A stretch of DNA of 64,000 bases, from NCBI GenBank assembly GCA_033297075.1, contig MU858115.1, positions 62,001 through 126,000 of the forward strand, in the 5' to 3' direction. Positions 15,134 through 50,165 of this stretch are shown one piece after another (position 1 is the first letter of the stretch; every line of letters begins with the position of its first letter). The notes below the pieces were generated by a model. That model ran no database searches. It saw only the letters and a program-made list of their open reading frames with translations, and had not been told where the DNA came from. The DNA is from Rhypophila decipiens (lineage: Eukaryota; Ascomycota; Sordariomycetes; Sordariales; Naviculisporaceae). Made by a program: the position numbers and the translations under genes.

Positions 15134-18100
15134 TCAAGCCGAGCGACGACGGTCTGGCTCCGGTCCATGCCTTTTGACTGGATATCGAAACCTCCCGGGC
15201 AAACTGCCTTGGACCACCCACAAGAGCCCATAGCAAGTCACAGTGATAAGCACTACTGCAGCAAGCTTGGCTACCAAATCATCCAAGCCCATTGTACGTC
15301 TAGGCGGCGCAACGATGATGAACCCAGCCAGGGGGAAAAAACAGAACCAGAAGTGAACCAGTCTTTTGCAGTACTCCTGGGCGGGTGAAGTGAACTGGTC
15401 TCCCTTTCCAAGCAGCCACTGGGTAGGGGTGCTTATGAGTCCAATGCCAATTTTATCGTACAAACCTGCCTCTATGGCAAGTTGTCGATTGAACCAAACG
15501 GGAAGGGCGAAGCCAAATAAGGAAAACACGCCGAGCATTTTCGCACACATCTCGAGCGAGAACGAGGTATAAGTATTTTTGGCAAAGAGAACCAGAAAGA
15601 TTGATGCAAATATCGCAGGGACCAGCCATCTGAGTTCGAACCAAAGGCTGTAGAGTTTGACATTTATTGCTTTCGGCTGGATGAGCGACTCCGCTTGGTT
15701 GATGTCGTATGGCCGCGCAGTCAGTCGCAACATGTGCATAGCCCGGGCACCGTCAAAGGTATTGTAGGATTGTGAGCGTATGATATCTCGAGGGGCGTTG
15801 CGTTTGGATTTCCCGACAGCTTTGAGCAAAGTGTAAAATATGAGGATATGTCGCGGGTCGGGCGACCCTGAGTTTACCATCATGTTCAGAGCTTCGACGA
15901 GAGGGTGCCTGTGGGTGGGTGTATGTGTGTCGATGTTGGCGCCGGATTTGACGAGAAGGCGGAGGCTGCGCACATCACTGTTGAGCACCGCCCGTTCGAT
16001 CAGAGGATAGGGCAAGGAAGTCATGGTACGCTGAATCTTGTCTTGTCCAGCATGCATGGAATGGACGAGACGGCGAACAACCGGGTAGTTTGCCAGGATG
16101 ACGGCCAGATAGAGCGCACCGTAATTGCCATACGACAAGTCTGGACCCACTGTGAGCAGCTTGTGTATCTTTGTTGCACCCCTCTCTCGAAGTAACAGCG
16201 AAAGAGAGAGGCATCTGGTTGCCATCTTAGGGTCGACTTGTCTCGTTCCTCGGATCGTTTCAACGCATCGGATAAGCACCCTCAATTTATCCTTCTTGCT
16301 GTACTCCCTCAGCTGCTGGTCGAGCAGCAAGTGATGGGAGTAGATAATTGCCCAAACAAATGGTGTGGGTAGAAGCTTGGTCATCACGATTTGGAAGACA
16401 CCCTCCTCCTTCAAATCATCACAGTAGAGGTTGGAGACATTGTCCCACTTATATGAGCGCAACTGTTTTGCCCAGAGTTTGTGTAGTTGTCTATCTTCTT
16501 CGACCATGGACTTCGAATGTATCAGCCAGTGCGTCTTGGCGTAGGGAAGAAAGACATCCCTCTTTCGCTGCATGGCATTCGGTTTTGGCGCTCGACCTTG
16601 ACCAATGTTGTAGCGTATGTCGATTGGCGCTTTTCTTTCGGCAGAGGTCGCAGTGGCCCCTTTGATCAAAGAAACGACGCTGACAAGCCGCCTGGAAAGC
16701 CCTCCTGATTGCATAACCGCATCGATGGCCTGGCTAGGGGGTGGTACTAGCGTAGGCAGCGACTTTTCCATCTGGGCCGATGATTCTTGATGCACAGTCA
16801 GCTCCTTGGTCGTCTCGAAGATGGCCAGATAGGTGACCAAAATCCCTGCCATCTGCTTATGGGCGTCCTGAGGGCTGAATTGGAATGAATTTGCCATTGC
16901 ACTCAAGTCCGCGCTGGCTATGTCTTTAATCTCGTTGAATAGAAACTGACGCACACTGGGGTGCACGAAGCGGACTGTCAGCTCCTCTTCGTCAACCTGG
17001 AGCAAACTTCCGCAGGAGGCCAATGTGACGTTGATATCGTTTATGAGGTTCTCGTCGGACCAGGCTGTTTCTCCAGGTACGATACTTAGCGCTTCACGCA
17101 GCTGGTCAATGGTCAGAAGCTCGAACGCGGCCGATAGTATCTTCAATATCGCAAGTTGGTACTGTGGTCCGAAGCCACGAGATTTGGTCAGGATCTGCCC
17201 GTATGTGGCTGGCAGACTTCGGGGAATGTTTTTCAAGGCCTGTCGGATGGCCCTGTCACTCCTTTCCGACGCTATTGTCTGTAGTTGAAGCACAACCCAG
17301 AGGAACATGCCACTTGCTCCGGCAATCAGGCATGCTTTGATCTCCTCCAGAAGCTCCTGGCTGCCAACGACGAGTTCGCCCAAGTCGACGAGATGTTCCA
17401 GTTCGGAATTCACAAACGACTCTATGTCCGGATTGTCGAACGGGATGTCGAGCACGAAATCTGGCTGAAGAGCGAGGACTAGATCCTTCTCCGGGTGGAC
17501 ATTGGCCTCTTGGCGCAATGAAGCACATATATAGAGATCCAGAGTTTTGCGCAGCTCTTCTAGATAGCACATCAATGCCAGCCTCTCTTTTCTTGGACAT
17601 TGGTCCAGACCATCTAGGATCAGAAAGACGGGTCTGCCACCTGGGAAAACCTTTCGCAGAAGGCCAAGCATTTCCCGGGAACTGAGCATATCTCGACCTG
17701 ATCCGGTTCTTGGTTCTAGCGCGTCCACCCAAGAAAGATCCGCTACTGCCTCCAAAATCTGTCGAGTGATAGAGCCCAGGACGGTCCTCGCCATGTGGCT
17801 CTCGCTGTCTTCGCTGATAACAAAGAAGTGAGCGACAGAGTACTGATGCTCTTTTCTCGCCAGTATCAAGTCGTCAATCATGTTGGCCAAGAGGACCGAT
17901 TTTCCAGAACCCAAGATGCCGCGCAGCAGGAGATTAGATGGCTTTGGTGAATTCTGGGCCACACGACCCTTCCACTCCAAATATGAATGGTCCGATAGGA
18001 AGAAGGTCGAGTTACCCTGCTTGCGGATTCTCTTTTGCTCTCTTTCATAATTGTACTGTGAACACGAGTCCAGCCACGTTAGACGGGTCTTGATCTTTTT

Positions 18101-18880
18101 ACGCTTTGTGTCGACCTCAGAAACGAGGGTCCACAGTGATCGAAATCGAGAATTTTGCTTGGCTTCCTCTTCGACACGCTGGGCGATAAGTAAGTTGATC
18201 TCACGATCAATGAAGATGGCCCATTTGTCAAGCTCTTCTTTCAGGTTCTTGAGCTCCGGATCAACGAGGGCAAGTTGGAGGCGCGCCTGTATTTGGCCCA
18301 AGGTGGATGGATTGAACAGCCGGTGGCACAGCTGGACAATAACAATGAAGTATTCGATCAAGTCTGACTGCAGACGCTTTGATCTTGGGTAGAGCACGGC
18401 GATCTGTTCGTGGCGAGGCGCTGTCTGGCCAATCTCCATGAAGAGTTCCGAGACCTTTTCTCTACATGAGGCGAGGTTGGTGAAGACCTGAGCAGAGTTG
18501 GTTAGCAAAAGTCAGGCACACTATGCAATGAAGGCCGCCGAACTTGCCGTTAGAGTCAATCTCAAGCAACCCCAAACAGCGCTTGGCACGACATTGCCTC
18601 CTCCGCCGACAATAACATCCCCGACGACGGCAAACTGCTGAACGGCCTTGAGGATATTCACAAACCGACTCCCATACGGTCTGCTTCCTGATTGATGGTC
18701 GAACTCGGCCACGGCGCGTCGAACATCATCCAGGGTGGGGGTTGAACTGGCCGCCTGGCTATGATAGGACCGAAATATTGCTTTCTTATCCTCGCTGAGG
18801 CTTTCCTCCAAGGTTGAGAGAGCATGGCCAAGTCGCACCTGGGGCTTGGCCCTGGCGGTGGACAGCATAAGGGAGTCCAT
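15134..18880 (-). CDS. NACHT/STAND (NLR-like) protein with C-terminal membrane segments
   Basis: Signal-transducing P-loop NTPase of the kind used in fungal non-self recognition. Exons 18880-18548 and 18487-15134 give about 1228 residues. The start at 18880 (MDSLMLSTARAKPQV) is preferred; an upstream in-frame ATG exists at 18940. The N-terminal 230 or so residues match the fungal STAND N-terminal domain type seen before NACHT (AVWGCLRLTLT...FMEIG, YPRSKRLQ). Walker A is GILGSGKS (about 301-308) and Walker B is VFLILDGLDQ (about 398-407). A winged-helix-like part and a helical, weakly ankyrin-like part (LLVKSGANIDTHTPTHRHPL) follow. Four hydrophobic helices fill the last 200 residues, which is unusual for this class. 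The first intron is GC-AG. The neighbourhood is rich in mobile-element relics. Confidence 0.88.
18488..18547 (-). other. GC-AG intron in the NACHT gene
   Basis: The 5' site reads ACG/GCAAGT and the 3' site CTCTGCTCAG, with a GCTAACC branch site. Phase 0 on both sides joins LRLTLT to VFTNLAS. No GT donor in the required phase exists nearby. Confidence 0.7.
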
Positions 18881-20135
18881 TGGGACTGGCAGGGTAGTGG
18901 ATGTCCAAAGGAAGAAGACCCATCGGCTGTTATTGACCAAAAATGTCGAATCTCATGGCTCTGACAATAAATGTTGACGATGGAGTTGAACCGATGTCGT
19001 CGTTCAGCTGAACTCGATCCTGGACCCCTCACGTGAAGCGCAGGGGCTTGTCGTGATACAGCCACCTCTTTATTCGTGGGGGCCTTTTTTTCCATCACGA
19101 AGATTGGGCAGCAGTACTGTACGGCAGAGGGGACACTCTGCTGCTTTTGGCCGAGACCAGGGTCCATTATGCAGGCGAGCGGCTCAGGGCCAGATTCCGT
19201 CATGTGTGTGGTTGCACAAATTCGGCATTGAAATCGGTGCCAAACGTGGGTCGCGACTTCCTTACCCCGTATTTGGGATGGCTTGGGCTGTTGAAGCTCA
19301 TGTCCAATATCGTGAACATGAAGCCCTTGAATCGGCAATTGCGGCAAGACGATAAACCGGTATCGGCCAATCTCTCGGGCAGTGGATTAAGATAGCTGCA
19401 AGATAATTGCAAGCGCATGCGAGTCGATTAACCTTCTGGTAATGGCCTTTTGAGTTCTAACTCGACGAACAGGGCATCATCATGGATCAAAAAAGGGTGC
19501 AATCACTCCGATTAGTCCTTCTGTTCCGTAAGGAGTGAATATCCCGACCGCAATCCGCCCCGCCCCGGCCTCAATCGCTTCCGAGACGGCAGAACGTATT
19601 TTGCGGAGGATCCGTTGAGGTCGAGGACCCTGCCGCTCCTCCGGTCTGTTCTCCACGTGGGAAACTTGGCCCGCTAAAACTCCACTGCAGACCCTGAAGA
19701 TAGCGGCTTGTCAGCGATCATCTCCCCCAATCCCGTCAAGCATCGTTCCTGCCCCCGTGGGTTTGACCGCCTATCCCCACGCTAGGGTATGTCACTTCAC
19801 CATCCGCGGTCTTGTTGGTCTTGTTTTGGTTAAACCCCCGTTCTTTGCCTCTTGGCTTGCGGAGTCGCTGATGGTGCTGTGGTTAGTGGGTGGCTGACCT
19901 GCTTGTCCACTGCACCAAAGCCCTTTGGGGTTTCGCCGGTTTTCACGATGTTGCGCTGTATTGACGTGGTTTTTTTCGACCCCTCTTCACCCTTTCTTTT
20001 GACTTCATCACCTAAGTTGAGTCCTCGGGGTCATAATTCGCTCATAGGATCTCCAGACGGCATTTAGACTTCAGTATTATATCAACGTCCGACAAAAAAT
20101 ATTCACCGTTGTGTTACACAAAATCAGTACCCGTA
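18881..20135. other. Intergenic region between divergent genes
   Basis: About 1.25 kb with short frames only. It should contain the promoters of the NACHT gene (minus) and the methyltransferase (plus). Confidence 0.5.
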
Positions 20136-21140
20136 ATGCCCGAACCAACCCGCCCCGAAAACCCCGAGCGGGTCGAAGTAGACGAGACCATAGCCGAAGG
20201 CGACGGCGACTCCTCCTACGGCAGCGACGTAGGATCCAGCGCCTCAACATCGCTCAACTCGTCTGTCCTAAAATACGAATGGAAGCACGGCAGACGGTAC
20301 CACTCTTACCAATCCGGGACATACCAATTCCCCAACGACGAGCAAGAGCAAGACCGCCTGGACATGATCCACCACGTCTTTTATCGCTTACTCAACGACC
20401 GCATCTTTTTGGCGCCCATCAACCCCAACGACAGCTTGCGCGTCCTCGACATTGGCACCGGCACGGGTCTCTGGGCGATTCATTTGGGCGATGAGTACCC
20501 CGGCGCTGAAACCATTATTGGCAATGACCTGAGTCCCATCCAGCCGGAGTGGATCCCGCCGAATGTGCAGTTCGTCGTGGACGACGTCGAGCTGGACTGG
20601 GCTGAGCCCAGGCCGTTTGACTTCATTCACTGTCGGTACATGGCTGCTGCGATAAAGGACTGGCCGCGACTGGTGAAGCAGATGTACGAGAATACCAAGC
20701 CGGGCGGGTGGGTGGAGCTCCAAGAGTCGGTGAATGAGTTGTATTCTCAGGATGGGAGTCTCAAGCCTGATGATCCCATGGTTCAGATGATGGAGGGCTT
20801 GACCAAGGCATGCGAGATGATTGGGAGGAGTATGAATCCTGCTCCGCTGATGGAGGGCTGGATTAAGGACGCTGGATTTGTGAATGTTACGGTGCAAAAG
20901 TTCAAGTTGCCTATTGGGGGCTGGCCTAAGGATCCTAGGTTGAAGGAGGTGGGCACGCTGATGGGTGTCAACTTTACCGAGGGCGTTGAGGCATTTACCG
21001 CCGCGTTGTTTAAGGATGTTCTTGGATGGAGTCAGGAGGAAGTCACCATTTTGAATGCTGGTGTGAGGAACAGTATCAAGAAGGGTTCGGCGCATGCTAT
21101 CTTTGATTTCTTGGTTGTTACTGCGCAGAAACCGGAGTGA
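20136..21140 (+). CDS. LaeA-like class I SAM-dependent methyltransferase
   Basis: Intronless frame of 334 residues. The frame extends upstream to a GTG, but the first ATG is at 20136. An acidic, Ser-rich N-terminus (about 40 residues) precedes the segment YEWKHGRRYHSYQSGTYQFP, the characteristic lead-in of the fungal LaeA/TAM-like family. The SAM motif I VLDIGTGTGLWAI follows at about 102-114, then the D-L-SPIQP loop and FDFIHCRY...KQMYENTKPGGW. Members of this family range from the global secondary-metabolism regulator LaeA to many paralogues of unknown substrate. This one is best called LaeA-like, not LaeA, because paralogues are numerous in every genome and no sequence feature here singles it out. 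Confidence 0.9.
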   Translation: MPEPTRPENPERVEVDETIAEGDGDSSYGSDVGSSASTSLNSSVLKYEWKHGRRYHSYQSGTYQFPNDEQEQDRLDMIHHVFYRLLNDRIFLAPINPNDSLRVLDIGTGTGLWAIHLGDEYPGAETIIGNDLSPIQPEWIPPNVQFVVDDVELDWAEPRPFDFIHCRYMAAAIKDWPRLVKQMYENTKPGGWVELQESVNELYSQDGSLKPDDPMVQMMEGLTKACEMIGRSMNPAPLMEGWIKDAGFVNVTVQKFKLPIGGWPKDPRLKEVGTLMGVNFTEGVEAFTAALFKDVLGWSQEEVTILNAGVRNSIKKGSAHAIFDFLVVTAQKPE

Positions 21141-25437: not shown

Positions 25438-27316
25438 CTACTGAGGAACACGCTTCGTGACCCTCAAGTGGAAATTCTTGCAGATCCAAAACGCCGCATC
25501 GAAAATCTCAAGTGGCTGAAGCGGATTAGCCACGGCGAAATCGAACCGTCTCACGAGCTGTCGATGGATCCAAAATGTCAGTTTTCACCTTATCAACCCA
25601 GCAAACATACCCCAAACACGTCGAAAAGAGACCAACAGATCAAAGAAAAAGAAAAAGAAAGAAAGAAACGTACCTCAAATACAACTTTATTCATCTCCGT
25701 CCACGCAATCTTGACACCCATACACTGGTACTTGCCATACCCAAAACACAAATCCAGCACCCGACTCATCTCATTAGCCTTTTCCTCTCCAACCTCAAGC
25801 CACCTCTCCGGGCGAAAGACATCTGCATCCGGCCCAAAGATGATAGGGTCATGCATCATGTACATGATATTCACGGCGATCTGCGTCCCCTCGGGCACAT
25901 GGAATCCGTGCATCTCGGCTCCTCCTTTGGGAGGCTGCTTGTTCATCCACCCTGTTGCGGGGGGGATCATGCGCATGCCTTCTTTGATGACGGCTTGGAG
26001 GTAGGGCAGCTTGTAGGCTGCGGCGTCGGAGACGATACCGCTCGGAGAAGAAGAAGTTGCGAGGCCCTTGGACGACGAGACTGCGAGGTCGATTTCTTTG
26101 CGCAGAGAGGATAGGGCGGATGGGGTGTTGATTAGGTAGAGGATTATCATGCGGATTGCGGTTGCTGTGCTGTCTACCCCGGCGATTCTGTCAAGTGCGT
26201 TAGTTAGTCTTTTTTGTCCGGAGTATCAAGGATTAGAATGATAGGGAGGGACTACTGACAGCTCCAAAAAGATCTCGGCGAGCAGCTCCTTCTTGTTCAT
26301 GCCATTCCGGATGTGCGATTCCAGCATGTCACCTCTTGGTTCGGCGCCGGGTTCGAAGCGTTTGCCGACGATTTGGTTCGCAAGTCTATTCGAGGGCCAG
26401 TAGTCAGTCAATTTGCTACAAGTCATCGGTGTTGGATGGAAATTCACAACTGGACTCACCCCATCAACATGCCAAAGCCAATCTGGTCACCCTCCTTGGG
26501 CATGCCCTTATTCAGAGGCCACATCTTGAGGTACTTGTCCACCCAGGGGATGGTCGTCACCGCGACGAGGATCGGCATGGACACGTCGTTGATGGCGACA
26601 TAGTTGTACAGGTCCTTGTCCTCCCTCAGGAACCCAAACGCCTCGCCGAACGAGATCTCGCTGATGACGTCGAGGGCAAAGAAGCTGATGGTGTGGGCGA
26701 ACTCGATGGGCCTGTACTCTGTCGCCGTCGAGATGTATTTGCGCTCAATTAGATCTACTAGCTGGGTGACAATCTGGTCGACCTTGGGCTCGAACCCTTT
26801 ACCGTCTTTGCCAGAGTACTGCGTGAAAGGTGTTGTTAGTATGTGTGTGAGATTAGTAGATTACATAGACGGTCGTTGCGACTCACTCACCCCGGGGGCC
26901 ATTTTCGCCTTGGTGGCTTTCCTCCACGTCTCATCCCGCGATGTAAAGACGCTGTCCTGGTCCGGGACCATCCTCGAAGCCTCATACCACGGGCCCTTGG
27001 TGAACTCGGACCGGACGCTCGACATCCTCCGGAATGTCTCGGGGTCGCCAATCATGACCAGTCCCGGGCCGATCCTCACCAACGGGCCGTACTTCTTTTG
27101 GATTTCCATCAGGCCATAACTGATCCTCCCTCCGCTGGCCATCTTGGTCAGCGGGAGATTTGAGATGGAGTTCAGAAATGGCCCGGGGATGTGATGCAAC
27201 CTCCACCAGGACCGAAACTCATTTGCGATAACGATAGCAACCACCAAACTGATGCCAACCCAGGCCAGCGTTGCCGGTGTGACGTCCTGAATCGACGGCA
27301 TGATGAAATCGGCCAT
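25438..27316 (-). CDS. Cytochrome P450 monooxygenase
   Basis: Haem-thiolate monooxygenase anchored in the ER. Exons 27316-26891, 26818-26460, 26385-26260, 26187-25674 and 25557-25438 join in consistent phase to 514 residues, normal for a fungal P450. It has an N-terminal membrane helix (TLAWVGISLVVAIVIAN) and the proline-rich hinge HHIPGPF. The I-helix reads ELIAGVDSTATAI (oxygen-binding region, with Ser in place of the first Thr). The K-helix ExxR is in AVIKEGMRM, and a meander PERW motif (FRPERWLEV) follows. The haem loop is FGYGKYQCMG with the ligand Cys near 459. All catalytic elements are present. The last intron carries a long A/G-rich run (25643-25672). The substrate cannot be inferred, and no backbone-forming enzyme is adjacent. 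Confidence 0.93.
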
Positions 27317-27836: not shown

Positions 27837-29220
27837 CTATCGGTAGCTGGGCGGCTGGTTCTGGTTTGAATAGTTCTCGTAATGGTGATTCTGGTAGTTG
27901 TGGTTGTAGATGTTGTCCAGCTCCTGAGCCTCCTCCTTGTCCTTCTTGGCACGGGTGCATCTCCAGATGATGAAATAGATGGGCATCATGATGACGATGA
28001 CAGCTCCGACCATGACTGCATATCCGAGAATAAATGTCCGGCTTGCGTCTGCGAGTTTGAGACCCCTATTATCTCCAGTCAGTCCCCGGAATCGGCACAT
28101 CAATGTCAGCGGGTCGATACTTACAGTCCGTTGTTGATCAAGAACAATATCCAAATGAGCCAGCCGACATATTTGTGAATCTTGCCCAAGAGAGCGCTCT
28201 TCTCTGGGGGCGCCTCTCCCCGTTTCTTGGCCCCTTTCTTCACGATGACAAGGAAAATGCCCCAAAACGCCATCACAAACATCAGGACGATGGTGAACAG
28301 GCCAAGAATCTGATGGCCGGTTCTGAAATTTTGCGTCATGACATATGTTCTGCTGATCTGGATACCGGGAACCAGAGCGCCGATGACCAAGGCCAAGTAT
28401 ATCGTCGACGAAATCATGTGCAAGGTGGGCCATTTCTTCAAGGCCCCCGCGACAAGGACGTCAAACGGGGCGCAAAGAAGAGCCACGATGGCGAAGATGA
28501 CACCATGGGCAGTTGCCCCTTTGTCGGTGCCATCTTGTTTGATGACGTCGGCTTTTGGAAGGTTCGCACCCGAGCTGGTACCGGCGGGCGGGAGCTCGAG
28601 GAAGGATGTGCTGGATGCTTGGACCATGTCGAGCCCAAAGCTGCCTGGTTTGAATCAGTACCGTTGTTGCTCCCGTAAAGCGAATAGTGGGTTGACTAAC
28701 CGTAGCCTTGATGACGTCTTAACAAAGCCTCCTTGTCGTCTGAACCAGCGCCATATGATGGTCCCAAGGCAAAGCTCATTGCCTGCGCCGGATTTGGGAC
28801 CTGAATCTCCCCACCGGGCCATGTGCGGCAGCCCTTGGTGCAAGTCGCGTTGACAAACAAGGTCTGGTTGAAAAGACGAGTTCCGTCGTGTAGCGTGATC
28901 TCGGCCTGAGGGTAGAACACAGGCTCGGTTCTGCCGGTGCTAAGTCGGGGACTGAGAGTGACGCCGTCGCGATTGGAGTTAGGATAGACGATGAAGGTGA
29001 ACATGTTATCCATTGAGCCGCCAAAGCCGATGGCGACATATTGGTACAAGTCGGGAACGGCCATGTAAAAGTTGACATGTTCCGAGTCTTTTGGAAGGTT
29101 GAGGGCGAACGTGGTGTCGCTGTCCTTGATGTAGACAGTCGAAGTCGCAGAGGCCAGAGATGCCAGATGCCATGACATGCAGAGCAAAGCCCATGTCGGC
29201 GAAGGTATAGAGATCTTCAT
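27837..29220 (-). CDS. DOMON-cytochrome b561 membrane oxidoreductase
   Basis: Exons 29220-28701, 28644-28125 and 28065-27837 give 422 residues. The start at 29220 is chosen because it opens directly on a signal peptide (MKISIPSPTWALLCMSW); upstream in-frame ATGs add a long non-hydrophobic leader. Residues of about 25-190 form an extracellular DOMON domain of the cellobiose-dehydrogenase-cytochrome type (FYMAVPDLYQYVAIGFGGSM, TFIVYPN). The b561 part follows with transmembrane helices carrying the four expected His residues (GATAHGVIF, TLHMISS, GHQILGLF, KIHKYVGWL). The tail is Asn/Tyr/Gln-rich (NHNYQNHHYENYSNQNQ). Such proteins move electrons across the plasma membrane. The electron donor and acceptor are unknown here. 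Confidence 0.9.
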
Positions 29221-29990
29221 GTTGGGATGGGACTTGAGAACTGACTTGCAGCTCGAGCTGAAGGCAACGGAACTCGCATGCCAGTCAAGCAGACGCTGGA
29301 CCATGGCTATCTATATGTGCCATGTTGGCGGCTGTCACGGGCGGCCTGCTATGCCAATTGCCATTTCGAACCATCAATCCAACCGCAACCTATGCACAGC
29401 GCTGAGCGCTGCATTCATGAGGTCCCAAGTTGAGCGTTGATGGGCGGCCAAGCTGATGTCGGCGCTTAACCAAGCGGCATTGCCTCGACGAGATTGGCCA
29501 GCGAATCTTCATCACGACGCGCCTCTGACAACGCCGGCGAATGAGAAGAGGGCAGCTTTATGGATAAGCTTTTTGATCCCTCTGCCGAACCGTTCTGGAG
29601 ATTGACCAATCCAGCGATTGTTTGTGGATTGCATCCAAAAATAGGGATTAGACCCTGGATGAGGAGCAGCAGTGATGGGGTACGGATACTTACCGGTTCC
29701 GGATAGTGTACAGTACGTAAGGTACGGTACAGTACTCGGGATTTAGTACCCCGCAATTCTTATCTGCGATCGGTCCATGTAATGTAAAGGTATCGATATC
29801 CCTTCACCACCGACTGCAAGGACTGGAAGGAGATGTCAACTACTTGCCCTTGAACTTCCATCAGAAAAGGATGACGGATGAGCCCCACGAGCGAGGCCGG
29901 GCCGAGGGAGGGGCCAAAAGGGTTCGCCGCTGCCAAAACCACCGTCTTCGCCGTCAATCTAGTGTCCGAAGGTCAATTACAAATATACTA
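29221..29990. other. Intergenic region with GTACAGTAC-type motifs
   Basis: No gene. Near 29705-29750 there is a cluster of short self-complementary words (GTACAGTACGT, GGTACAGTACTCGGG) that recurs at 39729-39760 in another intergenic region. Confidence 0.5.
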
Positions 29991-32984: not shown

Positions 32985-33495
32985 TTAAGTCATTTATACC
33001 AACTAGTCAATGCATTTATTCCAGTGTAAACAAGGTATTTATTCCAGCAGCCAAGGCATTTATTCCAGCAGTCGAGGCATTTATTCTAGTGCAATCAAGG
33101 TATTTTTTCTAGCCAGTCGGGGCATATATTCCAACCATTTAACGCATTTATTCCAGTCCAATCATGGTATTTATTCCAACAGTTGGGGCATTTATTCCAG
33201 CTAGTCAAGGCATCTATTCGAGCCGGTGAAGGTGTTTATTCTAGCCAGTCAGTGCATATATTCCAGACAGTCAAGGCATTTATTCCAACCAGTCAAGGCC
33301 TCTACTCTCGTGTAATTAAGGCACTTATTCCAGCTAGTCAATGCCTCTATTCCAGTGTAATTAAGGTATTTATTCCAGCCAGTTAAGGCATTTATTCCAG
33401 CTAGTCAAGGCCTTCATTACAGTCTTATTAAGACAACTATTCCATAACAGTAGTGCCTGTAAACGAGAGGACCGGTGCCTGTATATTAGGCGCCT
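32965..33495 (-). repeat. Third minisatellite array with one element end
   Basis: About 20 units of 21-24 bp in reverse orientation (GGCATTTATTCCAGCTAGTCAA) run from within the upstream coding sequence to about 33450. The right side ends in TAGTGCCTGTAAACGAGAGG..CGGTGCCTGTATATTAGGCGCC (33452-33495), matching the inverted-repeat ends of the element at 12176-12561. No matching left end is visible, so the copy is truncated or was inserted one-sidedly. Confidence 0.85.
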
Positions 33496-40168: not shown

Positions 40169-42667
40169 ATGGGTCGTCCTCGCTCAAGTTTCAGCGACAA
40201 GCCTTTGCTCAAAGTCAGTCGCCCAGTATCGGCTTGTTCAAGATGTGAGTTCTCGTCCTCTCTTCACCACCCCTCATCCCTCCTTACTTTTGTTTTAATA
40301 TATAACTAACGCGACATTCAGGTCGCGCTGCCAAGGTCAAGGTAACTCATACGTCCACGACTGCAAAACAGGTCGCGTTTGATGGGCTCTGATAAGCTAA
40401 CCGGTTACTAGTGTGATGGAAAATTACCTGCTTGCACGAGTTGTGAGAAGGCAGGGAGGGAGATTGAGTGTTCGGCGGCGAGCGACCAGTTCACTCGGGG
40501 CAAGGAGCGAAGGTAAACCCCATCTCGGCCCAAACGTCGTATTCTGGTCTTGGGTCCTTCATACTGACTGATGCGTTTTTGCCCAGCTATGTCGCCGCGT
40601 TGGAATCCAGGATTGAAACACTGAACAGACGCCTGGAGTATGCGAAACAACGCAAGGCTTCGGTCGCCCTACACGATCAAGATGCCGTCCCCGTTGCCGC
40701 CTCCATTGCTCAAGCTCCTCGCAAGGACTCTTTGGCGGTCATTCGAGACGCCGTCCACCGCAAGGCTGCTCGTAAGAGAGAAAACTCGGACGTCAACGCG
40801 CTGATCTCAGACTTTGGCTTTTTGTCCGTCAATGCTACGACACGAGACTTTGAGCCAGCAGTAACCAACATGACGTTTGCTCGGCTGGTGTTAGCAGCCG
40901 CAACCAACGACCCTCTGCCTGAGCCTTCTACTACATTGCTACCGCCCCAAAAGGTCGCCCATGAACTCGTGCAGTTTTACCTGTCAAATATCTATCCGCT
41001 GTATCCCATCTTCTCCGACACCACCCTCCTGACACTTGTTGACGATCTGTACACGGAAGCCCGCCGGCCCGTTCGGAGCACGGACCAATGGCTTTTCTGG
41101 ATGGTACTGGCCCTCGGATCTTCGGCTCAGAGTCGAGATGTGAAGGACGATTATTACAAGCACGGCGTCGAATATGTTGGGCGTGCGCTTGCCCATGCAG
41201 ACCGCGCACTTCAGCCAGGCTACGTGACACAGATACGGTCACTTGCCCTTCTCACCCAGTATTCCATGCTTGACCCTGCCCACTTCGACAGCTGGCATCT
41301 CAAAGGTTTCACCTCCCGTGCTGCCATCGATCTCGGCTACCATCAGGACCCGTCACCCATACACACGGTAGCAATGGACAATGCTGCCCTCGAGGCGCGG
41401 CGGAGAACATTCTATTGTGTCTTTGCTCTGGACAGGTATGCCGGATAGACAGATCTTGTGACATTTTGCACATGATGTACATGCTAACAGTGATTGTAGG
41501 GCAATCAGCATGGTGCACGCGAGGCCATTCTCCTTTTATGACGACGCCATGTCGGTGGAGCTACCATTAGTGGTCCGATCCCCTCCACCCGTCTTCTCAG
41601 GCGGCGCTATTAGCGGCCCTTTCTCAATAGAAGCATCGTCTTACCTGTTCAAGCTCCGAGAGCTGCAGTCGTACTGGTACCAGAATCTGTTCCAGGCTGA
41701 CCCATCAGATCCGTTACCAGACCCAACATCGTTCATCTGGCAAGTGTGTCTGGAGATGAGGAAATGGTCCGAGGCTCTTCCAAAATCTCTCCCAGCGGAT
41801 ATCCTGGAAATGTTGGATCTCGAGCTGCGCTACAGCTATGTCTATTGTATTGCCCCCAGTCCGAGGACGCCCCATTTGACCGATTACGGAAGATTGCTTA
41901 TTTACGAGCACGCCATCTCGTACATTGAGCGAATGCACGACGTTGCTCACGCCGAGAAGAATGCGGCATTCTACACGTATCACGATGCTCTCAGGGTGTA
42001 CTTCATGGGGTCTCAATTTCTGGCTGTGTTGCGCGATATTCCAGAGGCTACGCTGACTGCTAATCCCATTCACGTTTATCCATATCCTGCCCCTGGCAAC
42101 CCGCCGCCTCCTCCTTTGCCGGAGCATGGAAAAAGAATGGATGCTACACCGGAGCCTGGCAAGAAACTTGATGACCACTTCCAACGGAGTGTCCAGGCGC
42201 TTCAGAAGGTGACAGCAACCCTCGGAAAGTATGGAGAGAGGTGGGAAGATGCGTCGTCGCTGAAGGCAAGCTTCGAGACGCTGTCCTCGGAAATGGTGGA
42301 AAACATGAGGTCAAGGATACAGCAACGTCGTCAGCAACAGCCCCAACAGCAAGAGCAGTCACGACAATCCCAAACCACCCAACATCAATGGATTCCGCAA
42401 CAGCCACAACAGTTACAATATCCCCCACGCCCCCAACATCAACAAATACCCCAACAAGCAATGCAGAACGCCATGTATCACCAACAAGGAACGCCCTTGC
42501 AGCAGGTACAATATCCCCCACACCCCCAACATCAGCAAATACCTCAGCAAGCAATGCAGAACTCCATGTATCGCCAACAAGGAACGCCTTTACCGCAGCG
42601 GCCGCAAGAGGTCAGCTGGGTGGATGTTGATGTCGCTGGGATGATTAGAGGAGGCGGCCAGATATGA
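40169..42667 (+). CDS. Zn(II)2Cys6 transcription factor with Gln/Pro-rich tail (candidate cluster regulator)
   Basis: Exons 40169-40244, 40322-40341, 40412-40512, 40587-41435 and 41500-42667 give 737 residues. Exon 2 is a 20-nt micro-exon inside the zinc cluster; with it the motif CSRCRAAKVKCDGKLPACTSC is complete (C-x2-C-x6-C-x5-C-x2-C-x8-C). A short coiled coil (YVAALESRIETLNRRLEYAK) and the Fungal_trans domain follow (LVQFYLSNIYPLYPIFSD, GFTSRAAIDLGYHQD, FYCVFALDRAISMVHARPF). Residues beyond about 610 are Gln/Pro/His-rich with two tandem copies of a segment of about 31 residues. Its 3' end faces the repeat-peptide precursor gene 388 bp away, which makes it a candidate pathway regulator, though proximity is the only evidence. 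Confidence 0.9.
42415..42600 (+). repeat. Two in-frame copies of a coding repeat of about 93 bp
   Basis: QYPPRPQHQQIPQQAMQNAM and QYPPHPQHQQIPQQAMQNSM each continue to QQGTPL.Q. The copies differ at a few bases, which suggests a fairly recent duplication in the regulator's Gln/Pro-rich tail. Confidence 0.85.
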
Positions 42668-43054
42668 AGGTATACCACTGGGCAAGTGTAGATACTAGAA
42701 CTGGCGGTTATGTTTCGTCACCATTATCTATTTGACTTTTGCCTGCCCTAAGGCGTTTTGCTACTGCATACCTCGCGAGCTTCCAGGTTGGAAGCCGCAA
42801 AGGTGAATATAAATCTTAACAGCTCATAATGATCTTTTCTAACTGTCAACCCTCCACTCTTTTCCTCTTCGTACCCTTTGCTCCTCTCCACCTTCATTTC
42901 ACTCGTCTACCCTTGAATCCTCTCCTCCTTCCTTCCCTTTATCCATCCTGTTCCTTCTACAATCTTCAGGCCGGAAATAACACCAAACAGCCGCAATTCA
43001 CGATTGAGCAACGTAAAAGTTGCCATGTGTGGTGGTGGCTGGTTGTGTCTTTAG
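42668..43054. other. Convergent intergenic region, no gene
   Basis: A pyrimidine-rich stretch (42840-42970) and no supported frame. It separates the stop of the Zn2Cys6 regulator from that of the repeat-peptide precursor. Confidence 0.55.
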
Positions 43055-43612
43055 TTACTCCTGCTTTCCAATCAAGTCGGTCAGGGAGTAGAGGGGAGCA
43101 AGATTGTCTGTCCTGTCGTCGTTGACGCTAGCCTCTTCCTTGTCATCTCCCGTGACTCGGAGCGTGTTGTGGACGTACAGGGGAGCCAGATCGCCGGCAT
43201 CAGGAGTTCTCTTTGCTGGTGGACCAACGAGGGCCGTGAGAGAGTACAAGGGGGCGATGTCGCGCTTCTCGATTTCCATGTCTGGAGGACCGACGAGGGC
43301 GGTCAGGGAGTAAAGAGGGCCCAGGTCGGCCGCCTCGCGCTTTTGCGGTGGACTCACGAGGGCAGTCAGGGAGTACAGCGGCGCGGGGTCGCCCCGCTTG
43401 ACCTTTTCGGCGTTCTCGGGACCGACTAGGGCGGTCAACGAGTAAAGAGGGCCCAGGTCGGCGGCGTCGCGCTTCTGCGGCGGACCCACGAGGGCAGTCA
43501 GGGAGTAGAGAGGTGCGAGGTCGTCGCGCTTGACGTTGGGTTGGGCCTCTTGCTCGCCGATTAGGGCGGTCAGCGAGTAGAGGGGTCCGATGTCGGCACC
43601 TGGGTTGACGTC
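43055..43612 (-). repeat. Eight precursor repeats with conserved Tyr core
   Basis: In protein numbering the units are 27-55, 56-74, 75-99, 100-118, 119-143, 144-161, 162-193 (decayed) and 194-211. At DNA level the six exact cores use different synonymous codons for Pro, Leu, Ser and Thr, while TAC (Tyr) and GCC (Ala) never change. The peptide is therefore conserved by selection, not by recent duplication. Confidence 0.9.
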
Positions 43613-43760
43613 CTGATTTTGAGTGTTGGGGTTAGTATTGCTCTCGTGTTCTAGACGGTCTGGGTGAGAGCTAGATACTTACGGCGGCCGGGACCGGGGC
43701 GGCGCCGACGGTGTTGAGGTAGGCCAGGAGGGCGGCGGCGGAGATGCGTTGGAAGAGCAT
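43055..43760 (-). CDS. Secreted Kex2-processed repeat-peptide precursor (dikaritin-type RiPP candidate)
   Basis: Exons 43760-43683 and 43612-43055 (70-bp GT-AG intron, branch ACTAAC) give 211 residues. Residues 1 to about 20 are a signal peptide (FQRISAAALLAYLNTVGAA). The remainder is eight repeats, each with a core around PLYSLTALVG. Six cores are exact for PLYSLTAL, one is PLYSLTDL (last unit) and one has decayed to PLYVHNTL. Six Lys-Arg pairs divide the units, and residues after KR are often D/E-A (KRDAAD, KREAAD), as at Kex2 plus dipeptidyl-aminopeptidase sites. Spacers vary in length and sequence while the core is kept. A signal peptide, repeats and KR sites beside an UstYa gene define fungal dikaritin-type RiPP precursors. 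The peptide lacks Cys and Trp and has no CaaX, so it is not a typical Sordariomycete pheromone. The product structure is unknown. Confidence 0.88.
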
Positions 43761-44831
43761 GGTTGCTGGCAGGTTTGTAACTTGGTTGAGTTTGGAAGCT
43801 GAGTGAGTGGTGAATGTGTAGAGTTGCTTGCTTGCTTGATTTGCGTGCTGAATGGATGCTGAGTGGTAAATCGTTTGTCCTTGGGGGGATCTCCTTTCGG
43901 TCTTTATACTTTTCGATATGACTTGTTTCTCAGGGACTTTGTTTTCGAACGCGTCTTGACATCTCCTTGATCTCCGTCCCACATGACCTCCGACCTCGTA
44001 TTGATCCGATGAGCATGTTTCGCCGAGGATCAAAATCATCGCTTCACGATATCCGTAAACTGGTTCCCCAGCTCGAATGTCTAAAGGGTCTCCGTGGCGG
44101 TGAGGTTCCGGGCTCCCAGAATGGCAGGACCCCGAGTATGCTAGACACAAATCACATCATGAGATCTCAAATGGCTGTAGTATCACATATCAGCGCTTAT
44201 GCTTTGTTGTATTTGGCGATTTTTCGCGACTGAATCGTGACATCAGCGGTGAATCTTACTGCAAGTATCGTCAACACAACATATCTCACCTAGCCTCGGG
44301 TCACAAAGTAGTAAACGGTCTTGCGTCGAAGCTGCCTAAAATCCTAATGCGACCGCCACGATGTCTTTATTCGGCTGAAAGATTGAAGCGAACAAATGAT
44401 AAGCAGTGGAATTGTTGACCTGACGGATAAAGGCCATCTATTCAGCTTGGATCGGATCGGATCTGAGTGGTATTTGGTAAGCGCAGAGTGTGATTCCTGT
44501 CGTCATACGGAGATGTAACGACGATTATACAGACTGTGGAGAACTTCAGGATATGCAACTACACCGGGCAAGTACAGGGTCTGTTTTATGATACTCGGTG
44601 TGTATCCGTGATTCCTCGATAGATCCTTCCCTCCCCGACCGCGCCGAAATTATTCGGTCCCGTCCTCTGGCAATTCCCGGCCCTTATCAAGTAATCGCTC
44701 GGACAAGTCATTTCCGACATTTAACCACCACTTACATGTGCTCCTGGCAACCTTGAAAATTAATCCCATCACTCGTTTTCTGCCTTTCTGCCGGGAGGGT
44801 TTGTCTTACAGATCCCAAGAGCAGTGCCAAT
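43761..44831. promoter_or_regulatory. Shared divergent promoter region of the precursor and UstYa genes
   Basis: A 1.07-kb gap between two divergent starts (43760 minus, 44832 plus) with no supported gene. A divergent precursor/UstYa pair suggests co-regulation. No specific operator could be assigned by eye. Confidence 0.55.
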
Positions 44832-45891
44832 ATGGACTACGAGCCGTTGACCAAACCACCCCTAGACGACGACTATGAGGACGGCACGGCAGTATCCTCT
44901 GGCAACGAGCTCGCCTTCATCTGGGGCGAGCTTCTTGTCAGAATCCACCGTCTACCCAGACATCGCCGGAGAAGTCTTTTGCTCAAACTCGGCTTCATCA
45001 CAGTCCTCAGTACAGCCTTCATTTTCCTCGCCGCCTTGTTGGTCTTCCTAGGCATAGCCAAGTACCGCGAAAGCCACGTCCTGAATTTCAATCTGCGCCA
45101 AGTTTCAACATACAGTTCGTCCTCCATCATCAAAGACCCCATCCCATTCTCCATCTTCGATCCTGAAACCTCAACTGACAATGCCTTTGTTCTATCCAGG
45201 CCCAATCCACGACCTTCTCGATCTCAACCTCCACACAGAGACAATAAACGGCTCCTTCTTTCCCTCCAAACTCAAGCCGCCCTCCATAGCCCGCCATCTC
45301 CCCAACCACGCAACCGACCAAATATGGGAGGACCTCTCAGACGTGAAACCACTCACGCTCACAAAGTCCGATATCCTCCGCATGGGCAAGGATCCCTCGA
45401 CAGCGGTGCACCTCCTCGACGCGGACTTTGGTCTCGGAGACGACACCTACGGCGCCAGCCTCGACATCTTCCACCACATCCACTGCCTCAACTCGCTCCG
45501 GAAGATCGTCTACGGGACATACTACAACACCTCGACCGTCAAGCCAGAAACAAGAACCATGAAATCCCTCCACGTGAACCACTGCATTGATCTGCTCCTC
45601 CAAGCGCTCCAGTGCTCGGGCAACGTGAATTACATCACCTGGCACTGGGTCGAGAACCAGCCGTACCCGTTCCCAGACATGTCGGTCAACCGGAAGTGTG
45701 TTGACTTTGGACGGCTGGTAGACTGGCAGAGGGAGAATTCGATTGATCGGGCAAAGTACGACGCTGTCACGGGTGTCAAGCCCAAGGGCGCCAAAGAGAG
45801 GCCGGCTCCGGATGCGCTGTATGCGTGGAGTGGTGTGCCGAATCCGAATCATGTGAATGGGGCAAATCAAGGCGAGGATTTTAATATTTGA
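44832..45891 (+). CDS. UstYa/DUF3328-family oxidase, membrane-anchored
   Basis: Exons 44832-45114 and 45200-45891 give 324 residues. The junction restores the family motif in which an aromatic-Ser-Pro leads into the first strand (TYSPIHDLLDL...INGSFF). The cytoplasmic N-terminus is about 48 residues, with one transmembrane helix at about 50-75 (LGFITVLSTAFIFLAALLVFLG). Two HxxHC motifs mark the family: HHIHC (186-190) and HVNHC (219-223), followed by a late Cys at the end of the domain (NRKCVDFGRLVDW). UstYa-type proteins catalyse oxidative crosslinks and cyclisation at Tyr or Phe side chains in fungal RiPPs, and related proteins act in some other pathways. It is divergent from the repeat precursor and tail-to-tail with an MFS transporter. 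Confidence 0.93.
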
Positions 45892-46124
45892 GCATGGGAA
45901 AGATGGATTATACATCTTTCGAGATTTTTGAGATGTAAATATTTAAATAATTAGAGAGACTCAAGTCTCATATGTTGACAAGAATTAGACGTGAGGTTGT
46001 TTTCGTTTCTCTGTTGCTTTGCCGTCAACACATCACCTTCAGCAGTCATCTCTGACCTATGGTACTGGAGAAAGAACGATGTTATGCAAGAGTCTCCAGT
46101 CTCCATTACTACCAACAATAAACA

Positions 46125-48145
46125 TTACGCTTGGCTTTCCTTGTCCGGTCCCTTTTCCCCAACATTAGCTCCTTTGGGAGTCTTCTCTGATACAACGGTC
46201 TCCTTGTCCGCGGCTGTCTTGTCCTCCACCACAGGAACCGACTCAAAAGTTTCCTTTGATGGTACCGTGATCCCACCCGTCGTTTCCTTGTCCTCAACCA
46301 CAGGGACTGCTTCAAGAGTCCCCTCAGATAGCACCGTGACCCCGCCAGTGGCTGTTCTATCCTCGACAACGGGAGCCTCCTCAAGGGTCTCCTCAGCTGG
46401 TGTCGTATCCTGATTCTTCCTTGGTAAATCATCCCTCCGTATCGCCCATCCACCCGACCAGCCCACCCAGCCCGTCTCTCTGGGTCCTCTGACGACGCAC
46501 AAAATAATAGCAGCCCCAATAAACGCAACTGTTCAAAATTCGCGTCAGCAACCACCCTCATCCCACAATCCTCCGGATGCAAAACGAAGACAAAAACTTA
46601 CTACTACAACTCCCACTATAAACCCATCCCCCCGCGGCATAAAGTCGATTGCCCACAGCAGTGCCAGTCAACTGGCCAGAAAAAGCAACAATCATATACG
46701 CCGTATTGACTCGATTCCTCGCCAGAGGCTGAATCCCATATATATTGGCGCGATTGGCAATCTGCGCAAACTGAGATCCAACATCGATACAGATGGCCTG
46801 GACAATCGGCCCCGCTAGATGAAAGCTCCCGATAAATGTGCCGACGATGACGCCCGCCAGCTCGAATATCAAGCCTATCAATGCCGAAAATAAAGGCACA
46901 ACCTTGTCAATCACCAGGCGTGAATACACCGGCGCTAACAAGATGACGATGACCCCGATAAGACCAAACAACCCGATGATGACAGGTTCGTACCCATATG
47001 GCGGGGACGATAGGAGAAAGGAGAGCGTGGTCCAGTAGCTCGTGAACACGGCCGACAAGAAAAACGTGACAAATGAGGCCTGGACCAGCAACGGCTCCGT
47101 CACAAAAAGGACAGCTATGCTCCAGAGCATGGAAAAGTAATTCATCCCGTCGGGGTTTTTGGATGGGTAATTCGGCATGTAGACGTACAAGAGGGCCAGG
47201 ACGATGACCTGGACGCCGAAGCCGAACCAGTAAATGTTTCGCCACGAGTTTGTGAAATTGGCGAGGATACCCGAGAGGATTCTCGCGACTAGGACGCCGA
47301 GGGATAGACCGGATACGACGATTGCGAGGGAAGATGCTCGACGTTCTGGGGGGGCTAGGTCGCCTACCAAAGGTAACATGAGTTGTGGTGTTACTGTTGT
47401 GAATCCTACTAGGAAGGATATTGCGGAGAAGGTTGTGAAGGAGGGTGTCAGGCAGAGGATTAGCCACTTTTTGTTGGTGAGAGAAAATACTGGTTAGTTG
47501 GTTGCCATGTGTTTGAGATTGAGTGAATGGGGGCGTACTATCGCGGCGGTGAAGCCAATCAGTGTGATGATGAATGGTCGACGGAGAAAGAGGTCACCCA
47601 GCGGACAGATGAAGAGCAGCCCTGCAGCGTAGCCGGCTTGCATGAGGGTGGCGATTGAGGAGGCCTTTTCGAAGCTGACGTCAAAGGTCTCGGCTATTTT
47701 GTTCAGGATGGCTTGATTGTAGTAGAGGTTTGAGACTGTGAAGCAGGCTGCCTGTGGTTTGTTTGGTCAGTGACGTGGCTGTGGGCTTGGGAAGGGAGAT
47801 GATGACTTGACTTACAAACCCGAATAACATGTTCAACCAAACGGTGAACTTGGGAGGATTTTCTGGGTCATAGCGTGCTGGAGGCGGTATCCAATTCCAT
47901 GCTCGTTGGACACGACTCGGAGGATTCATTGCGGTCTCCGTGGCGGAGATACGAGGGCTCCCAGCGGTGACGCTGCCATTGGGAACTGAGGCAGTGGGAG
48001 GTAACGATACTGGTAATTCGGGGATACCATCATGTTCTAATTTTGCTTCAATCTGCCGTGCTGGAGGTGCGATGGTCTCGTCGGTCTCTGAGCTCTCCCC
48101 GGGTATACTAGTGATGACTGGTTTATCCGGGTCATTTGTCGCCAT
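46125..48145 (-). CDS. MFS transporter with acidic repeated C-terminal tail
   Basis: Exons 48145-47816, 47751-47539, 47466-46602 and 46528-46125 join in phase to 603 residues. A hydrophilic N-terminus (about 105 residues) is followed by about 12 hydrophobic helices. The motif between helices 2 and 3 is GLLFICPLGDLFLRRPF, and a later conserved stretch is TPQLMLPLVGDLAPPERRA, as in the DHA1-like/YnfM-type MFS group. After the last helix (AFIGAAIILCVVRG) there is an unusual acidic tail with three diverged copies of a PVVEDKxTxGGxTV-like unit. Intron 3 has a poor acceptor (AAAAAG/TGG), but protein similarity to the family at this position supports it. It probably exports a small product. Its position beside UstYa and the precursor makes the mature peptide a candidate substrate. 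Confidence 0.88.
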
Positions 48146-48977
48146 ATTGATATAATACTGTTAGTAGTTAGATAGACGGTACTTGGAAAGAAACTGGAGA
48201 ATCAAGAATGTGGTCGCTGTGGAAGAAGTATGGTGGTTTTGAGCCGCCGATCAAGATCGATCGTATCGGCTCCTGCCCCTTTCCGATGAACGGGACGGCA
48301 ATTGTTTTGGCGTCCCCATTGGGGTTGGATTGGGAAGGTCCGGCCTCCGAGATTTTGCTCTTGCATCGGCCTAACGCACACCGGTTGCCCGGCTTCAAAG
48401 AGTTGGTGTCATGGGATTTGTGGGGGCCTGGATCCCAACTGCCCTGCCCGTCCCTTCCACGACTGCTGAACGGGAAGGAAGAGCGGAAAAGGAAATAAAA
48501 CAACAATTGTTCCGGTTGGCCGAGTCTGGGATCATTCATGTGGTGATTGATGCAGTACCCGAGTGTCACGATGACAGTGAACAAATCAACATCAACATCA
48601 ACATGTCAAAAGATGTTGAATGGTTCCAAGGTGGGCGCTTGGCGGTCGGAATAGTCCCCCGCGCTATCGGAGCCGGATCGGCGCTTCCTCGTGCGCCGCT
48701 TTTTGACATGATGGTGACGCCATTTCCGGTGCAGGATTTAAAGCCATGCACTGGGACTCTGTCACCCCTAACACTGACGTTTGGCTCAAGCTGTGACAAC
48801 ATGAGCCCAAATTTAGCAGGTTTTGGCTTACGCTAAAGAGCATTTCATGTTTGGAATGATGATTATCAGTACGACTGCATGTGCATGATTAGGTATTTTA
48901 GGTGAGCATCTCGACTATTGAGACGATTATCAGCTAACATTGGTATAGCGCAGCATTCTGCTACCCTTAAACCATGT
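48146..48977. other. Intergenic region, no supported gene
   Basis: Short frames only. A small CAACAT repeat lies near 48586-48603. It includes the promoter of the MFS gene. Confidence 0.5.
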
Positions 48978-50165
48978 TTACAGAAGAAAGAAAAAAGGTC
49001 TTAACCTCCTGGCCCCCGAGCCCTTGGTGTCCGGCTTGGCCGCCCCGTCGGGAACAGGAGGAGTCGGAACAGGACTTGTCGGTCCTGGCCCAGGTACGAG
49101 CTGTGCAGCGGAACTAACTGGGCCTTTTACCTCAGACGAAGCCGTCGCATCCGGCTCCTTCTTTCCTTCCTTCTCGATAATATTGGTGATATTAACCAGG
49201 TCCGTCGGGAACGGGAACTTGATCTTCAGATCGCACTCCCCGCCTTTGTTGAAGTACTTGCTTGCCGCGGACTTTTTGATGGCATCGAGCTGGTTCTTGA
49301 GCTGGGTGATGTTGGGATTGCTCACGCCCTCCGCAAAGGCCTTCAGACCGCCGGGATAGAGATTATCCATGAGGACCAGCCGGCCGGCCTCGGCAAAGTT
49401 TTCGACATAGGACCCCGTGCCATAGGCACTCGCCGCAATCCCGTCCTTGTCAACGGCATCTTGCCATGTAGATGTGTTCGAGTATTGGGATCCGTACAGA
49501 CCGAGAGGGGCATCAGGCGAGGCGAGAGTGCAGTCGATCGAGTGACCGATCTCATGGACCAGCGCAGTGATGAAGTAAGCCTCGCTAATTCCGACAATGA
49601 GACCATCCGGGCATGAGGCCGCGATAAAGCCGTCATAGTGTTCGGTTTTGAGGTCGCTGTAGACCATGTAAGTCGAAGTAGACTGCCTCATGCTGATGGG
49701 CAGCCTGCTGATCTCGGTGGCAATCTGCTTGGGGTCCTTCTGCGCCTTGATGTGATAGCACAGCACAAAGGGCGACTTCTCACAGTCAGAAAAGGTCACG
49801 TTGTACATCTCAAAGTCGGCCACGTCCCACTTGTCGGTCTCGACGCCCCAGTAGTAGCACGAGTTGGGCATCATTCCGTTGGTCCATTTGGACAGCGTGA
49901 ACTCGTGGGTCGGCAGGTACTTCTTATATGCGGTGTCCCCTATATCGTCGGGTGTTGCGATCGGAAGGGGCGGAAGGAGGTATTTGCCATTGGCGATGCA
50001 GAACTCATCCTTCTTGGGGTCGCAGTAGGGGTATGGGTCGGGGTTGAGGACGGTGCCGTCGTCTCTTCGTACAAGGACCGGCTTGGGTCGTTCCTGATGA
50101 CCAAGCACTCCCGTGGACTGCAGGAGCAACCCGGCGAGGGAGACGGCCAGGTACTGTTTATACAT
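48978..50165 (-). CDS. Secreted HExxH zinc metallopeptidase-like protein
   Basis: Intronless frame of 395 residues. It has a signal peptide (MYKQYLAVSLAGLLLQSTGV) and a possible Kex2 site (VRR/DD at 32-35) before a Cys-containing N-terminal part. The zinc motif HEIGH is at 204-208 in ITALVHEIGHSIDCT, and a candidate third ligand Glu lies in YVENFAEAGRL (255 or 259), giving an HExxH...E arrangement. The C-terminal 70 residues are Pro/Ser/Thr-rich and end in a short hydrophobic stretch (RPFFFLL), possibly a wall or anchor tail. The specific peptidase family is not certain. It lies next to the MFS transporter on the same strand. It could help mature a secreted peptide or act as a general extracellular protease; the second is the default. 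Confidence 0.8.
   Translation of the reverse strand: MYKQYLAVSLAGLLLQSTGVLGHQERPKPVLVRRDDGTVLNPDPYPYCDPKKDEFCIANGKYLLPPLPIATPDDIGDTAYKKYLPTHEFTLSKWTNGMMPNSCYYWGVETDKWDVADFEMYNVTFSDCEKSPFVLCYHIKAQKDPKQIATEISRLPISMRQSTSTYMVYSDLKTEHYDGFIAASCPDGLIVGISEAYFITALVHEIGHSIDCTLASPDAPLGLYGSQYSNTSTWQDAVDKDGIAASAYGTGSYVENFAEAGRLVLMDNLYPGGLKAFAEGVSNPNITQLKNQLDAIKKSAASKYFNKGGECDLKIKFPFPTDLVNITNIIEKEGKKEPDATASSEVKGPVSSAAQLVPGPGPTSPVPTPPVPDGAAKPDTKGSGARRLRPFFFLL

Follow-up and report, generated by a model that had tools for sequence, protein, structure and literature searches.

A candidate single-UstYa pathway for a Kex2-processed repeat peptide in Rhypophila decipiens

Can one UstYa-type (DUF3328) oxidase, with no tyrosinase at hand, act on the long, aliphatic cores of a fungal repeat peptide? 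The locus that raises this question lies in a 64,000-nucleotide stretch of Rhypophila decipiens DNA (hereafter the window), which corresponds to positions 62001-126000 of contig MU858115.1 (C71; 178,884 bp) of assembly GCA_033297075.1 (45.7 Mb in 408 contigs). Five genes, all within 40169-50165 of the window, encode a Zn2Cys6 regulator, a Kex2-processed repeat protein (KEP) precursor, a UstYa protein, a major facilitator superfamily (MFS) transporter and a HExxH peptidase. Together they probably form a candidate cluster for a ribosomally synthesized and post-translationally modified peptide (RiPP), a fresh example of an already known type. The reading that we prefer, with a probability of roughly 0.6, is a single-UstYa KEP pathway with asperipin-like gene logic, in which Tyr3 of each core is likely joined to an aliphatic residue.

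The precursor gene runs on the reverse strand from an ATG at 43760 to a stop at 43055 and is interrupted by one intron (43613-43682); a search of the whole genome returned this gene as its single match and no second copy (coordinates of all features are collected in Table 1). The encoded protein has a hydrophobic start followed by eight units, six Lys-Arg (KR) sites and mostly acidic spacers, i.e. the near-identical, KR-separated repeats by which KEPs are recognized. Units 1-6 are PLYSLTALVG or differ from it by at most one residue, and units 7 and 8 sit in a single KR-delimited segment. The signal-like N-terminus is hydrophobic and then continues with VGA-AP; its mean hydropathy over 11 residues is 1.6. 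The most frequent 5-mer of the precursor occurs seven times, versus at most three times in any of 2,000 shuffles, and this result together with the codon variation between units rules out a chance origin of the repeats. Codon variation among the seven SLT-containing units is mostly silent (111.5 silent vs 34.5 replacement pairwise changes; 16 vs 5 in a parsimony-type count), with proportions of silent and replacement differences, pS and pN, of 0.572 and 0.079 (pN/pS 0.139), which points to selection on the released peptide. Gene conversion could reduce both pN and pS, yet by itself would not favour silent changes.

Two relatives of the precursor allow the cores to be compared position by position: P0001, named Rhypophila decipiens, is 95% identical to the window precursor and likewise 211 residues long (8 units, 5 KR), and P0002, from Rhypophila sp. 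PSN 637, is 73% identical (7 units, 4 KR). Across the 23 units of these three proteins, which stem from closely related sequences and are not independent observations, Pro1, Tyr3 and Leu8 are constant, Leu2 differs once and none of the other core positions is constant throughout. All three known precursor sequences retain the divergent unit 7 core, PLYVHNTLRV, which may therefore represent a second product and not decay.

Head-to-head with the precursor, across 1,071 bp, stands a gene whose product is, by its sequence, a true UstYa/DUF3328 protein. Exon 2 matches Pfam UstYa (PF11807) with 145.7 bits against a cut-off of 25, HHIHC and HVNHC lie at residues 186 and 219, and none of the six ligand residues of these HxxHC motifs changes in any of the 32 aligned relatives, selected out of 62 hits. 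The intron (45115-45199) agrees with the relative P0003 (93%), an equally long protein whose sequence is continuous across this junction. A single hydrophobic segment of the window protein lies near residue 55. In the AlphaFold model of P0003 (mean predicted local distance difference test score, pLDDT, 79.6) a helix spans residues 43-82, the region of that segment, and the two motifs are carried on helices 183-198 and 215-233; this two-helix placement agrees with what the available text of PMC12435403 describes for CctR, a DUF3328 protein reported there to be copper-dependent. Comparison with solved structures gave no UstYa relative by sequence, and by fold 72 matches at E<=10, none of them at 0.001.

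The transporter and the regulator are equally recognizable. The spliced MFS model, with three introns, matches MFS_1 with 92.3 bits; the donor of the third intron is ambiguous and permits four in-frame versions. The regulator, whose exon model was selected so that the zinc cluster stays intact, matches Zn_clus (39.3 bits) and Fungal_trans (64.5 bits). The original prediction, made from the nucleotide letters, had proposed a KR-punctuated repeat precursor, a UstYa gene with both HxxHC motifs, an MFS exporter gene, a Zn2Cys6 regulator and a secreted HExxH peptidase at the positions where we find them, and had regarded the core around PLYSLTALVG as unrecognized. All five positions hold, the precursor proves to be a real gene with an intron added to its model, and PLYVHNTLRV joins PLYSLTALVG as a distinct core.

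The fifth gene is the least secure member. Its protein carries HEIGH together with a further conserved acidic residue, the combination expected of a zincin, and all 19 sequences compared retain H204, E205, H208, D211 and E255. Its fold hits fall among zincins and are weak (best E 0.014, no hit reaching 0.001), no Pfam family exceeded its cut-off and no NCBIfam match was obtained, and a sequence search of the PDB gave no convincing relative (three matches up to E 1, the best at 0.096). Among 18 relatives, four have CBM1 and two are named conidiation-specific protein in the database; the genera named belong mostly to the Sordariales. The family is broad and present in many Sordariales, which weakens the case for membership, and the peptidase may be just a neighbour of the cluster. 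Thus the predicted secreted HExxH peptidase stands as a gene with its HEIGH motif, while a role in the cluster is doubtful. A link between this family and UstYa is possible because a second clear copy in this genome (C193:66995-67906, 45%) also lies near a UstYa match, 10.1 kb from C193:56554-56907; no repeat precursor was found beside that match in the stretches examined. In Thozetella sp. PMI_491 a UstYa relative (P0026) and a peptidase relative (P0081) are both on a contig of 1,241,779 bp, whose size is too great to demonstrate clustering.

Families that accompany other pathways of this class were sought exon by exon over the entire contig, a procedure by which diverged genes can be missed. 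The contig has none of the 60 genome matches to tyrosinase (PF00264), none of the 68 to FAD_binding_4, none of the 24 to FMO-like and none of the four to S41 peptidase; a second UstYa is likewise lacking, the one match on the contig out of 67 to PF11807 being the window gene. A single match out of 39 to NmrA (PF05368), which we take to be the family of isoflavone reductases, lies at 153656-154537 of the contig, about 46 kb from UstYa and beyond the window. There is no methyltransferase among the five genes, and the nearest one among the window open reading frames scanned with Pfam is at 20109-21137, about 22 kb off. The original remark that no tyrosinase, second UstY or FAD oxidase is visible is borne out for this contig by these searches.

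These results bear on the class to which the locus can be assigned. A dikaritin pathway in the strict sense (Ding et al., as cited in the consulted part of PMC12048977) includes a tyrosinase, a methyltransferase, multiple DUF3328 proteins and a transporter or peptidase, and here we find no tyrosinase and one DUF3328 protein, along with a transporter and a peptidase. In the broad sense, also given in that part of PMC12048977, DUF3328 is the class-defining enzyme, and at this locus a DUF3328 protein and a repeat precursor are encoded 1,071 bp apart. The proposed dikaritin-type RiPP cluster therefore survives in the broad sense, as one of few genes, and not in the strict one.

The closest precedent is asperipin-2a (aprA, aprY, aprT, aprR), which in the account available from PMC6514808 comprises a precursor, one UstY homologue, a transporter and a reductase, with no tyrosinase, in agreement with the original statement that this pathway works with one UstY. 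The present locus is alike in its one repeat precursor, one UstY-type DUF3328 oxidase, transporter and lack of a tyrosinase. It is unlike in having no isoflavone-reductase-type gene among its five, the NmrA match described above being the nearest, and in a core that is longer, has one Tyr and is unrelated in sequence; it also has a peptidase-like gene and a regulator as neighbours. With ustiloxin and phomopsin, as far as the relevant parts of PMC7329392 and PMC6514808 describe them, it shares a KR-punctuated repeat precursor (here predicted to be secreted), a DUF3328 oxidase, a zinc-finger regulator and an aliphatic residue at Tyr+2 (Tyr-x-Ile there, Tyr-x-Leu here), whereas the contig lacks matches to tyrosinase, a second DUF3328 and S41 peptidase. 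The epichloecyclins (gigA; PMC9233826), compared by the description in part of that source, similarly have a repeat precursor, Kex2 sites and cores of medium length, there nonapeptides crosslinked between Tyr and Ile, but their Ile is N-terminal and their Tyr internal, whereas here Tyr stands near the N-terminus of the core. The locus also shares those class features that could be checked against the portion of PMC7329392 at hand with KEPs that have DUF3328 neighbours (ust-RiPS), but its PLYSLTALVG core is, in the protein search, confined to Rhypophila. Four fragments of this core were absent from all 5.39 million open-licence PMC papers covered, a body that does not include the supplementary tables of the KEP surveys, where an earlier listing is possible.

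In the pathway that we favour, the Zn2Cys6 protein would turn the cluster on and the precursor would go into the secretory pathway, as its N-terminus suggests. Membrane-anchored UstYa, by its family a putative binuclear-copper oxidase, would modify each core, most likely by bonding Tyr3 to an aliphatic residue within the same core. Kex2 would cleave at KR, exopeptidases, perhaps with the neighbouring peptidase among them, would trim back both flanks of the core, of which the N-terminal one is acidic, and the MFS protein would serve in product export or producer protection. The ring could be Tyr3-Leu5, by analogy with ustiloxin and phomopsin, whose Tyr-x-Ile spacing is given in the consulted part of PMC7329392. 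A Tyr3-Leu8 ring could also be conceived, because unit 7 keeps Leu8 but not Leu5. A motif of the form Asp/Asn-x-Ala/Gly-Pro-Leu/Val-Tyr leads into the cores, and a bolder version of the scheme, which we consider speculative and rather doubtful, is that UstYa without a tyrosinase closes a six-residue Tyr3-Leu8 ring and also accepts PLYVHNTLRV, reading only this entry motif and Leu8. Such a crosslink with built-in promiscuity is not among the features of ustiloxin, phomopsin, asperipin, victorin or epichloecyclin described in the literature sections at our disposal.

Several observations weigh against this pathway. The protein search for the precursor, which required shared 5-residue words and scored only the 7,998 candidates sharing most of them, returned two relatives, both from Rhypophila, while the UstYa search returned 62 relatives at E<=1e-20, spread over many ascomycetes. 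This negative outcome in many fungi with UstYa relatives is one reason why the Tyr crosslink is a step that we infer; the other is that the available part of PMC12435403 implicates DUF3328 enzymes in hydroxylation and halogenation besides macrocyclisation. P0001 has lost one of the KR sites and P0002 has four in all, and cores are not significantly more conserved than spacers between the window precursor and P0001 (2/80 vs 9/105 differences, p=0.12). In PSN 640, relatives of UstYa and of the peptidase (V8F20_002467) are on a 379,958-bp contig and the precursor was not found by the search. Within the genome studied here, the 67 UstYa matches fall into 34 groups, and nine of the 12 groups whose flanks were examined (C326 and the window included; C208 on one side only) have no repeat precursor. 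Among these is the nearest UstYa paralogue, on C326 (42%), which occurs with two other HxxHC proteins and lacks a repeat precursor throughout the 16 kb examined; this is perhaps a DUF3328 cluster of a different kind.

The narrow distribution of the precursor, the wide one of UstYa and the paralogue on C326 without a KEP in the stretches examined are also what would be seen if the two genes were accidental neighbours, UstYa working in another pathway and the repeat precursor being an independent KEP. We regard this as improbable, given that a random gene would lie this near a UstYa gene in only about 0.25% of cases (34 groups, 3.4 kb each, 45.7 Mb) and that a diverged precursor beside UstYa orthologues could escape a search needing shared 5-residue words. 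Moreover, Rhypophila sp. PSN 637 has its relatives of the precursor (V8F33_003230), UstYa and the peptidase (V8F33_003233) together on one contig of 325,364 bp, the identity of contigs being judged here from the equal bp size of those listed. The locus tags are spaced as expected if precursor, UstYa, MFS and peptidase follow one another in this order, with the two middle tags filled in by us, and in V8F06 the precursor (008027) and the peptidase (008024) are found on a contig of 171,954 bp. Synteny among such close relatives is weak evidence for shared function and must itself be counted among the reservations above; the synteny check suggested for the precursor-UstYa pair thus succeeds in the shared contig of PSN 637 and falls short in PSN 640 and in the confinement of the precursor to Rhypophila. 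Fungal surface peptides can also arise from repeat proteins, as with the Ustilago repellents, and this precedent would support a KR-cleaved structural or surface protein, repellent-like and no metabolite precursor at all. That is very improbable here: the units are short, their single Tyr is invariant, a DUF3328 gene is adjacent and an MFS gene stands behind it.

What UstYa does to the core is a further question, since the range of reactions tied to DUF3328 proteins in the same part of PMC12435403 would also suit a KEP with a linear product, hydroxylated or otherwise oxidized by UstYa with no ring formed and secreted as a signal or defence peptide. Such a reading would accord with the 6,120 of 7,878 KEPs that had no DUF3328 neighbour in the 2020 count (PMC7329392, section 7), and with the aromatic content of the cores, a single Tyr being the sole aromatic in seven of the eight and His being added in unit 7. 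Yet the DUF3328 gene here is adjacent and divergent, and among the 1,758 KEPs that do have DUF3328 neighbours in that section the counts are highest at the adjacent gene. Tyr, furthermore, is retained in all 23 units, the divergent one included; in the consulted part of PMC7329392 it is found in 65.6% of the repeats of KEPs with DUF3328 neighbours versus 38.2% elsewhere. We consider a linear product unlikely and retain the single-UstYa pathway with a Tyr3 crosslink as our preferred reading.

Two further UstYa groups of this genome have repeat precursors with dibasic sites, so that the count is three of 12 (window, C167, C152), a fraction with no clean background rate, as the repeat scan, under a relaxed rule, covered 276,856 bases nearly all near UstYa genes or in the window. 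On C167 there are three UstYa match places, the nearest of them 3.9 kb from the precursor, and this locus is likely another RiPP cluster. That on C152 has RR/KK sites and no Tyr and lies 1.8 kb from a UstYa match. Repeat open reading frames in which dibasic sites are few or lacking (L010, L013, window 33007-33201, along with antisense frames and pieces of window genes) were discarded by eye. Elsewhere, C3:505583-567809 has ten UstYa match places in 62 kb, exon pieces being counted separately.

The window also contains, in order, a GH7 gene with CBM1 (6095-7267), a gene for an NPHP3/NACHT-type protein (15134-18508), a cytochrome P450 fragment (25593-26150) and b561-like and CDH-cyt domains (28124-28627, 28699-29304), and nothing indicates that any of these belongs to the cluster.

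Table 1. Features of the locus (window positions) and repeat precursors at two other UstYa loci of the genome (contig positions)
Feature	Position	Strand	Details
Zn2Cys6 regulator	40169..42667	+	exons 40169-40244, 40322-40341, 40412-40512, 40587-41435, 41500-42667
KEP-type precursor gene	43055..43760	-	exons 43760-43683 + 43612-43055; 211 residues
Core unit 1	43556..43585	-	PLYSLTALIG
Core unit 2	43484..43513	-	PLYSLTALVG
Core unit 3	43421..43450	-	PLYSLTALVG
Core unit 4	43352..43381	-	PLYSLTALVS
Core unit 5	43289..43318	-	PLYSLTALVG
Core unit 6	43223..43252	-	PLYSLTALVG
Core unit 7	43154..43183	-	PLYVHNTLRV, divergent
Core unit 8	43067..43096	-	PLYSLTDLIG
Divergent intergenic region precursor/UstYa, presumed shared promoter	43761..44831	.	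1,071 bp
UstYa/DUF3328 oxidase	44832..45891	+	exons 44832-45114 + 45200-45891; 324 residues; HHIHC, HVNHC
MFS transporter	46125..48145	-	introns 47752-47815, 47467-47538, 46529-46616
Secreted HExxH zincin-like protein, doubtful cluster membership	48978..50165	-	single open reading frame, HEIGH
Second repeat precursor	C167:65524-66252 (L026 759-1487)		eleven PAYVWASA-type repeats, signal-like start
Third repeat precursor	C152:70892-71336 (L018 7789-8233)	-	spliced model 131 residues, SSPKPPIMDAGVDF-type repeats

Pairs of a KEP and a DUF3328 protein are of a kind already known, and the new part of this locus is the PLYSLTALVG core family, which adds to the material for genome mining in dung-associated Sordariales. 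The Rhypophila strains tabulated in the consulted part of PMC12734299 originate from dung, and one strain carrying the label R. decipiens is identified there as R. myriaspora; the main text of that paper makes no mention of RiPP or antiSMASH. Clusters with a single UstYa are the simplest place to find out which substrate features a DUF3328 copper enzyme recognizes, and this precursor brings its own comparison, as its two kinds of core differ strongly yet have Pro1, Tyr3, Leu8 and the acidic entry motif in common. The identity of the product would tell whether one such enzyme can crosslink a core of this length and aliphatic character when no tyrosinase takes part.

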